This document shows, in pieces, positions 12,535 through 16,057 of a DNA stretch of 64,000 bases. The notes beneath the pieces were generated by a model. The model was given only the letters and a program-made list of their open reading frames with translations. It did no database searches and was not told the DNA's origin. Position numbers and translations under genes: made by a program. How positions within the stretch are numbered: position 1 is the first letter of the stretch; each line of letters opens with the position of its first letter. Origin of the DNA: Methanobrevibacter ruminantium M1 (GTDB lineage: Archaea; Methanobacteriota; Methanobacteria; Methanobacteriales; Methanobacteriaceae); the NCBI RefSeq assembly GCF_000024185.1, contig NC_013790.1, positions 1,883,501 through 1,947,500 on the forward strand, written 5' to 3'.

Positions 12535-13371
12535 TTATTTTAAAATTTCATTCTTAAAGAACCTATAGAATCTATAGGCATCATTTAAATTTAAATCGTC
12601 TTCCAATAAAAGCATTTCAGAATTGTCAAATACAACATCATCAAAGAAAAGGTATAATGAAGCAAACTGATCTGAAACTGTAAAGAAGATATTTGGAAGG
12701 TCATCCACAATATAAAACTTGATCTTCTTATCTCTCACCAAGGACTTAATCTTATTGTCAGAGTCTGATTTAATTGACAAATCATAAATGTTCTTTGTAG
12801 TCACCAAATCCAAATAGCCATCATGTTCGATTATAGCGTCATTAACGGCATCATTGAAGATTTTAGAAAATACAGGCAATATCATGCAGATATATGTAGA
12901 CTTTTTAATGTTTTCCAAGTATAGATTAATAGGCTTGGCAAAATCTGTAATGGTTGATTTAACTAATGTAGAGTTATTAAAGATGGATAATTCCTTTAGA
13001 AATTTGTTAGGAATTGATTTGATGGAATGATTTTCCCAAAATTCTCCATTAGACTCAATAGATCCCATATTATCCATTAGATTTTCCAGATTCTTTGCAA
13101 CCAAAAATCCAGTAGATGATATGGCAAACAATTTATTTGGAAGCTTTGTAATTAATTTACAGGATTTTAATTCATTTAAACCTCTGGAAATATTGCCGGA
13201 TTTTCTATTAATCTCAGACTCCAGCTCCTTAATTGATTTGCTGGATTCATATAGGCTAAACAATATTTTCAATCGTAGCTCAGAGCTGATAACAAATTTC
13301 AATAGGTTAAAATCGTCCAAATCGCAAATTCCTTCAAAAAGTTCTTCACTAATAATCATCCTCCCTTCCAT
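12535..13371 (-). CDS. winged-helix regulator, FilR1-like (second of a tandem pair)
   Basis: The N-terminal ~75 residues form a winged helix (LRLKILFSLYESSKSIKEL, then a recognition-helix region with SGNISRGLNEL). The C-terminal ~150 residues match the middle domain of methanogen FilR1-type regulators (COG4742): ITDFAKPINLYLENI and IFFTVSDQFASLYLFFDD. It presumably represses or activates in response to a small ligand bound by the C-terminal domain. The gene overlaps the preceding paralog by 23 bases, so the two are co-transcribed. The ATG at 13371 is used; an alternative ATG at 13359 sits too close to GGGAGG. Confidence 0.82.
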   Translation of the reverse strand: MEGRMIISEELFEGICDLDDFNLLKFVISSELRLKILFSLYESSKSIKELESEINRKSGNISRGLNELKSCKLITKLPNKLFAISSTGFLVAKNLENLMDNMGSIESNGEFWENHSIKSIPNKFLKELSIFNNSTLVKSTITDFAKPINLYLENIKKSTYICMILPVFSKIFNDAVNDAIIEHDGYLDLVTTKNIYDLSIKSDSDNKIKSLVRDKKIKFYIVDDLPNIFFTVSDQFASLYLFFDDVVFDNSEMLLLEDDLNLNDAYRFYRFFKNEILK

Positions 13372-14209
13372 TAGGATAAATAAGATTCTCTAGTGAAACA
13401 TAATCTCCGCATAATTCTTCATATTCCTCAAAAAGCTTTAATCCAAAGGTGATAGCTTCAGGATTAGTTGAAACCAGCACTGCATTTTGATTAAACTGGC
13501 CAGATTTAGTATATAAAGCCAAAACAAAACACTTATCAGACACTGTAAAAGCCAATTGAATGTTATGGTCGTTAGGTTTTAATTTGACAAATCTATTCTT
13601 AATTCCAGGGCTTTTTGGAACATAATCAATAATGAAATTCTTTACAGCCTCTGAAACCTCATCAGGAAGTATTAATTCAACAGTGCAATCATTGTCTATC
13701 CAATAGCTAATAATATCATCATGTCGTGGATGGAAATAAGGGAAGATACCTTTTAAAAATTTAAATCCCATTAAAGAACGTTGAAAGATTTCAGTAGATT
13801 TAAATAAATCAATATTATTAGATTCAATTAGTCTAGAGCCTTCAAGAGCAGATAAATCCTTTATAGCTTCAGAGTTAATATCTATAAGAGACTGATTTAA
13901 GAAATCAGAATTCTCTCTTAAAAATGTGGCTGATTTGTTAAAATAGAGAATGCTGTTTAATTTCAGCCTTGTTTTATTATATAAATAAAATTTATCCTCT
14001 ATGCTATAAATAAACTTTTTTTGCTCCAGCTTATTGATATTGTCAAGAATTGAACTGTAACTATAATTTGTAATTGCTTCTATCTGTTTTATTGAAGCAG
14101 AGGAATTATACAAGCAGCCTAAAATTTTTAAACGAATTTCAGAGTTAATAAGAAACTTTATATCCTCTTGAAGTTCAAGAAAATTTTCTTCTTCAAATCG
14201 ATTTGTCAA
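13349..14209 (-). CDS. winged-helix regulator, FilR1-like (first of a tandem pair)
   Basis: This protein has the same architecture as its downstream neighbour: a winged helix at residues ~10-80 (IRLKILGCLYNSSASIKQIE) and a FilR1-type sensor domain (STEIFQRSLMGFKFLKGIFP, then FTVSDKCFVLALYTKSG and FGLKLFEEYEEL). It starts with TTG, decided by GAGGAGG eight bases upstream. The two paralogs have diverged strongly, so they may form heterodimers or respond to different ligands. No target gene is identifiable; the pair stands between alcohol dehydrogenase and PAN. Confidence 0.82.
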   Translation of the reverse strand: MTNRFEEENFLELQEDIKFLINSEIRLKILGCLYNSSASIKQIEAITNYSYSSILDNINKLEQKKFIYSIEDKFYLYNKTRLKLNSILYFNKSATFLRENSDFLNQSLIDINSEAIKDLSALEGSRLIESNNIDLFKSTEIFQRSLMGFKFLKGIFPYFHPRHDDIISYWIDNDCTVELILPDEVSEAVKNFIIDYVPKSPGIKNRFVKLKPNDHNIQLAFTVSDKCFVLALYTKSGQFNQNAVLVSTNPEAITFGLKLFEEYEELCGDYVSLENLIYPNGREDDY

Positions 14210-14517
14210 AATATAACCTCCTCAAACTATACTTATATTTATATAATAAAAAATATTTAAACTTTATAATTGTTTAATAAATTAAGAATAAAATGAATAA
14301 ATCTATAAAACTTAACTGAATTAATATATAAAATATAACGAAACTAAAAATTAGAGAAATATTTAATATTAAAAAAGAATATCTAAAAGCTAAAAAGAAT
14401 TAGAGAAATATATAATATTAAAAAAGAATATCTAAAAGCTAAAAATTCTATAAAATTAAAATCAAGCAAAACAAAAAAATAATATAATTCTTAGACAAAA
14501 ATAGTAAAATAAGAATA

Positions 14518-14583
14518 AAATGGCCTCAGATCGCCCATCATTCATCACATATCAGAGCTCATAGGGTTCATCACAGGCCATTT
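14518..14583 (-). ncRNA. C/D box guide sRNA (2'-O-methylation guide)
   Basis: On the minus strand the order is box C GTGATGA (14568-14574), 12-nt guide (14556-14567), D' CTGA (14552-14555), 3-nt spacer, C' GTGATGA (14542-14548), 12-nt guide (14530-14541), D CTGA (14526-14529). The ends pair as AAATGGCC with GGCCATTT. Spacing of 12/3/12 is the canonical archaeal layout for L7Ae/Nop5/fibrillarin assembly. By the D+5 rule the guides predict 2'-O-methyl C in AGCUCAUAGGGU and in AUCGCCCAUCAU, methylating the fifth base of each. I could not identify the targets from memory. It is the only GC-richer island in a 573-base AT gap (14210-14782); no other feature is seen there. Confidence 0.93.
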
Positions 14584-14782: not shown

Positions 14783-16057
14783 CTATCCAAACATTACTCC
14801 GCCATTATCATCTAAGGTACCTGTCTTGTTTTTACCCATAATCTTATTGATAGCATCCTCAAAGTCTGCCTTAATGATATGGTCTCTTTCCTCACGGATA
14901 GCAAACATACCTGCCTCTGTACAGATAGCCTTTAAATCTGCACCAGATAATCCTTCGGTAAGCTCAACCAACTCACTCATTCTAACTTCAGGATCTATAT
15001 TCATCTTTTTAGTATGGATCTTAAGGATTTCACGTCTTCCATCTTCATTTGGAGCTGGAACTTCAATGAATCTGTCAAATCTTCCAGGTCTAAGCAAAGC
15101 AGGGTCTAAGATATCCGGCCTGTTGGTTGCACCAATGATTCCAATATCTCCACGTGATTCAAAACCGTCCAATTCAGCCAAAAGCTGCATAAGAGTTCTT
15201 TGAACTTCCCTATCACCACTTGTGGAACTTTTAAGCCTTTGTGCTGCAACTGCATCAAGCTCGTCAATGAAGATGATACTTGGAGCCTTTTCCTTTGCAA
15301 GCTCAAACACTTCCCTAACCATTCTTGCCCCTTCACCAATGTACTTCTTAACGAATTCAGAAGCGACAACCTTAATGAAAGTTGCGTTTGTCTCATTAGC
15401 TACTGCCTTAGCAAGCAAGGTCTTACCGGTTCCAGGTGGTCCGTATAATAAGATACCTTTCGGTGGGTCGATACCAACCTTTTCGAATAATTCTGGATGT
15501 TTTAAAGGTAATTCAACAGTTTCCTTAACTTCTATAATCTGTTCATCCAAACCACCGATCATATCATAGGTAACATCAGGTTTGGCTTCAATTTCCATAC
15601 CAGATACATTTGCATCCTTTTCGGAAGGCAAAACTTCCACAACGCCAAAGGTCTGTTGATTAAGTGCAACCCTTGAACCTGGCTTCAATAGGTCTTCATC
15701 AAGGAATTTAGAATAATTGATTAGGAAACTAGGTCCGGTACTGCTTTTTACAGTCATTCTGGAATCGTCAATGATTTCAGTGATAGTTGCGATAACAAGA
15801 GGCGGTGATCTGAATCTTTCAACTTCACCTCTTAATGATTTTAACTCTCTTTCCAAACGTATTTTTTCATTTTCAGTTAGAATCTTGTCTTTTTCAAGTT
15901 TCCTAACCTTCCACATAAGATTGCGTTTGGTTTTTTGGTTTTCAGCTTTAAGTAAATCAAGTTCCTTTTGAAGCTCGTCAACTGTTTTAGGCTCTTCTAT
16001 ATTATCTATTTTAGTTGGGCGATTTAATTCAGGAACTTCATTTGGAGAATCATCCAT
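14783..16057 (-). CDS. psmR: proteasome-activating nucleotidase PAN
   Basis: This is the hexameric AAA ATPase that unfolds proteins and feeds them to the archaeal 20S proteasome. An N-terminal coiled coil (residues ~25-82) is followed by an OB domain (~88-150) and the AAA module with Walker A GPPGTGKT (206-213), Walker B IIFIDEL (261-267) and arginine fingers in LRPGRFDR. The C terminus is GGVMFG, so the docking motif HbYX (hydrophobic-Tyr-any) is replaced by Met-Phe-Gly. The length of 424 residues is normal. The start follows AGGAGGAG. It stands alone. Confidence 0.95.

Follow-up and report, generated by a model that had tools for sequence, protein, structure and literature searches.

On the minus strand of the window, meaning the whole stretch of 64,000 nucleotides of Methanobrevibacter ruminantium M1 that was analysed, lies a box C/D sRNA of canonical double-guide form, running from 14583 to 14518. 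The gap around it has an A+T content of 83%, the sRNA element one of 55%. The whole element including its terminal stem (14518..14583) was recognized from its boxes, by covariance searches and by a pattern scan. Its conserved upstream neighbour and likely host transcript is the gene of the proteasome-activating nucleotidase (PAN; 14783..16057, minus strand), named from its domain set (Pfam AAA, AAA_lid_3 and Prot_ATP_ID_OB_C) and its sequence, and recognized as the neighbour from synteny.

Read on the minus strand, the element begins with the 5' arm of an 8-bp terminal stem (AAATGGCC, 14576..14583), seven pairs of which entered the covariation analysis. The arm is followed by a T (14575), box C (GTGATGA, 14568..14574), the 12-nt D' guide (ACCCTATGAGCT / ACCCUAUGAGCU, 14556..14567) and box D' (CTGA, 14552..14555). 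After a D'-C' spacer, which reads TAT (14549..14551), come box C' (GTGATGA, 14542..14548), the 12-nt D guide (ATGATGGGCGAT / AUGAUGGGCGAU, 14530..14541), box D (CTGA, 14526..14529) and the 3' arm of the stem (GGCCATTT, 14518..14525), assigned by covariation. The order of boxes C (RUGAUGA), D' (CUGA), C' and D (CUGA) is that of an archaeal box C/D sRNA. The earlier note had proposed such an sRNA in an AT-rich gap, and the A+T measurement and the minus-strand reading bear it out: all four boxes lie where claimed, and the lengths given for the guides (12 nt), the D'-C' spacer (3 nt) and the stem (8 bp) are correct.

The strict C-D'-C'-D pattern had a single match in the window and none in 150 simulated windows with the same dinucleotide composition, and the fold z-score of the element was -3.1. 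The simulated windows together with the covariation of the stem rule out a chance origin. When compared with Rfam 15, the sRNA did not reach the gathering threshold of any family, and its general C/D shape alone was recognized. The best of the archaeal sR families, sR2 (RF01139), has the same C/D architecture, and its match (39.1 bits, E 1.4e-7) lies under its gathering score of 42, with the similarity mainly in the boxes. As a member of the C/D family, the sRNA would be expected to assemble with L7Ae, Nop5 and fibrillarin.

Conservation and covariation

Within the genus, a BLAST search with an 81-nt region found the sRNA in the own genome and in 15 others among 19 genomes, with 94-99% identity. 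A seventeenth match, in G018, was of chance level (20 nt only) and was discarded. One draft genome of the genus (G003) carries the sRNA twice, each time at a contig end (L013, G003:C97, and L026, G003:C174), reflecting either a duplication or an effect of the assembly.

A covariance model found the sRNA in 127 of the 139 genomes of the family. A second model, constructed from 43 family sequences and adding three further families, found it in 141 of the 152 genomes of the phylum and in all four families searched, the 141 including at least one match, that in G104 (E 0.003), which is too weak to count. The phylum genomes with no match were mostly incomplete assemblies. As the four families have the sRNA in common, it is not specific to one lineage, against the lineage-specific site suggested earlier as a possibility, and the sequences form a candidate RNA family without an Rfam entry that spans four methanogen families.

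The terminal stem, which closes the C/D kink-turn, covaries strongly: both sides change in six of the seven pairs, with a score of 0.446 where shuffles gave 0.178, and the signal was lost when the stem partners were shifted out of register. The stem had been described as unusually long; the 8 bp are real here, while the outer pairs are missing in many relatives. Box C (RTGATGA), box D' (CTGA), the TGATGA core of box C' and box D (CTGA) were present in all 108 distinct sequence contexts, so that the covariance search and the box conservation in relatives, on which the earlier note had let its proposal depend, speak for it. Also the guides adjoin boxes D' and D on their upstream side in all 108 contexts with a length of 12 nt, within the 10-12 nt of archaeal C/D sRNAs, and the length of the D'-C' spacer differs among the contexts. 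Positions 2-11 of both guides did not vary in any context, whereas the D guide can have U, A or G at position 1 and A, U or C at position 12. In the known structures of archaeal C/D RNPs, the guide-target duplex really formed consists of ten pairs, at positions 2-11.

The D' guide and elongator pre-tRNA-Met

In the readable part of the own genome (G000), the literal 12-nt target strings of the D' and D guides had no match besides the sRNA itself. A near match to the D' target, GGCTCATAGGGT, was found at G000:C1:546015-546026 on the minus strand. Its flanks (GCCGGGG...CGGCUCAUA|GGGU...intron...AU|ACCG) are those of elongator tRNA-Met with an intron after A37. The flanks of the other one-mismatch target matches in the own genome were also read and bore no mark of a stable RNA. 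ARAGORN gave no call for the intron-containing tRNA-Met in G000 and wrongly labelled that of the distant relative G151 as Ser; the two were recognized from their exons.

The duplex of the D' guide with the pre-tRNA-Met of the own genome has 12 bp, 11 Watson-Crick pairs and one G.U pair that adjoins box D', and covers G30 to A37 together with the first four bases of the intron. The base opposite position five of the guide, that is the fifth base upstream of box D', is the wobble base C34, as in a Cm34 guide. RNAduplex gave -21.3 kcal/mol with the precursor and -10.7 kcal/mol with the spliced tRNA, which together with the intron bases within the duplex makes the precursor the likely substrate. 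As splicing takes away the intron bases of the duplex, the D' guide would have to act earlier. Across the family, 50 pre-tRNA-Met loci with about 30 different sequences all have the junction GGCUCAUA|GGGU, and the interiors of their introns differ; in G151 the tRNA-Met intron is short and different and still starts with GGG.

Judged from this complementarity, the D' guide most likely pairs with unspliced elongator pre-tRNA-Met across the boundary of exon 1 and the intron and directs 2'-O-methylation of C34. The suggestion that the guide may be an orphan thus fails for D', and the proposed search for the 12-nt target strings gave no literal match elsewhere in the readable genome, its near match for D' being the own pre-tRNA-Met. 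With a duplex that runs over the exon/intron junction and opens with a G.U pair, such a target is easily overlooked. What appeared to be an orphan guide now has a clear and testable tRNA target.

The sRNA, so read, belongs to a known type, the pre-tRNA-Met Cm34 guides. The guidance of Cm34 on pre-tRNA-Met by such sRNAs is established in archaea; Grosjean et al. described it with 18 archaeal candidates (PMC2584109), and the Haloferax guide is, according to passages in citing papers including PMC6601510, the subject of Joardar et al. 2011. As far as can be compared by description, Haloferax volcanii sR-tMet and related guides share with the present sRNA the stand-alone C/D gene, the guide over exon and intron, the target C34 and the action before splicing; the differences are that here also the second guide is invariant and fits rRNA, and that the gene is tied to PAN. 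Pyrococcus sR49, likewise compared by description and belonging to another class, is a predicted trans-acting C/D guide to the same base of tRNA-Met. The guide in the tRNA-Trp intron (sR50 type) likewise relies on intron sequence to direct methylation of C34 in a pre-tRNA, but it sits within the intron of its own target while the present sRNA is a separate gene. Human SNORD97 and SCARNA97 are C/D guides for C34 of elongator tRNA-Met (PMC6601510); being eukaryotic and two cooperating RNAs, they are a functional analogy only.

Candidate rRNA targets of the D guide

The rRNA targets were judged on relatives, as the Rfam LSU and SSU models matched no sequence in G000; the relatives have runs of N at their rRNA loci. 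Such runs were seen in L169 and L170 and at G151:C1:24001-32000 and 768001-776000. Scans of viral contigs for rRNA found nothing, and the 37 tRNAs of G151 included no target for the D guide.

The 23S rRNA reads GGGUUGUUCGCCCAUUACAGGGG in the readable part of a genus sibling and GGGGCUGUUCGCCCAUUAAAGGGG in another genus of the family. Of these sequences, UCGCCCAUUA pairs with the D guide, whose core is UGAUGGGCGA, at exactly positions 2-11, giving 10 bp with one G.U and placing the target base in helix 92 at position 5. Predicted duplex energies were -16.6 to -16.8 kcal/mol. An equally good site was found for about 1% of shuffled guides when 2.6 kb of 23S was scanned, and for about 2.5% with full 16S and 23S. 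The A-loop extends from U2552 to C2556 in E. coli numbering (Dennis et al., PMC4644070), and the candidate target of the D guide would therefore be the equivalent of C2558, in the stem of helix 92. This position adjoins a known methylation hot spot. The earlier note had placed neither target in rRNA or tRNA; the D core now fits the A-loop stem of relatives and the D' guide pre-tRNA-Met, and the note's prediction that in each target the base to be methylated is a C is borne out.

A second site competes with that of 23S. The 16S sequence ACCGCCCGUCA of two other, distant archaea, around E. coli C1402 in helix 44, forms a duplex of similar energy (-17.4 kcal/mol) with positions 3-11 of the D guide. 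Position 10 of the guide is an invariant G, though 23S has U there and 16S has C, while the A at position 2 fits 23S and mismatches a C in 16S, yet is invariant in the 108 contexts. Also the bacterial C1402 carries a 2'-O-methyl group made by RsmI (PMC5053481). It is possible, if on the whole somewhat unlikely, that the D' guide acts as described and the D guide serves C1402, alone or together with C2558. Position 2, which pairs in 23S only, and position 10, where only 16S demands a G, would together fit a two-site guide.

It could also be that the D' guide alone is functional, the D guide being an orphan or serving only as a structural element or chaperone; in the tRNA-targeting sRNAs of Pyrobaculum, one of the guides usually lacks a target (PMC7994747). 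This is improbable: in the D guide, positions 2-11 are no less invariant than in the D' guide, whereas its positions 1 and 12 vary. On the pairing found, the most likely function of the D guide is to direct methylation of the cytidine that corresponds to C2558 of E. coli 23S, with 16S C1402 as a weaker or additional target.

Linkage to the PAN gene

PAN lies directly upstream of the sRNA on the same strand in 104 of the 114 loci, in which some genomes are counted twice. More upstream DNA, or a second locus in the genome concerned, settled eight of the remaining ten loci, and the last two are truncated by the end of the contig; PAN is thus the same-strand upstream neighbour in every locus that can be judged. 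This linkage is a new element of the present work. The distance between PAN and the sRNA varies from about 16 to 300 nt and is only 18-30 nt in many genomes, where release of the sRNA from the PAN 3' UTR is likely because there is little room for a separate promoter. The own genome has a gap of about 200 nt, which makes an own promoter possible. Archaeal C/D sRNAs have mostly been reported without own promoters (PMC7994747), and the sRNA is probably freed from the 3' UTR of the PAN transcript.

The constant position of PAN would also agree with an element whose main action is in cis, a kink-turn within the PAN mRNA 3' UTR that is bound by L7Ae and controls PAN expression, with guiding as a secondary function; L7Ae-based regulation in archaea has been suggested (PMC5539422). 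However, such a kink-turn requires the boxes and not two invariant 10-nt guides, and the distance to PAN is far from fixed, which makes a mainly cis-acting element very improbable. The preferred reading, with a probability of roughly 0.86, is a double-guide C/D sRNA whose D' guide targets C34 of pre-tRNA-Met, whose D guide most likely targets 23S C2558 and which is probably released from the PAN 3' UTR. A more far-reaching proposal, by which one RNA released from the PAN 3' UTR sets methylation at tRNA-Met C34, 23S C2558 and 16S C1402, all three related to decoding, and so couples PAN expression to translation, is speculative and improbable; if true, it would explain the freezing of both guides and of the neighbourhood across the class.

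The kind of sRNA is already known; what is unusual here is how far both the sequence and the gene neighbourhood are frozen throughout the methanogen class. Archaeal C/D guides have been reported as fast-evolving (PMC7994747), and with both 10-nt guide cores and the PAN neighbour unchanged, the present sRNA makes a good case for asking what fixes a guide RNA.

Some further features were seen in passing. The distant relative G151 has two more canonical C/D sRNAs, which lie adjacent to each other (L214, G151:C1:90500-90900). Downstream of the sRNA in the window, the A+T-rich gap contains two adjacent, near-identical copies of about 50 bases (aattagagaaatat..taatattaaaaaagaatatctaaaagctaaaaa, 14340-14445), and two overlapping FilR1-type regulators (PF08350) stand in tandem on the minus strand at 12535-14209.
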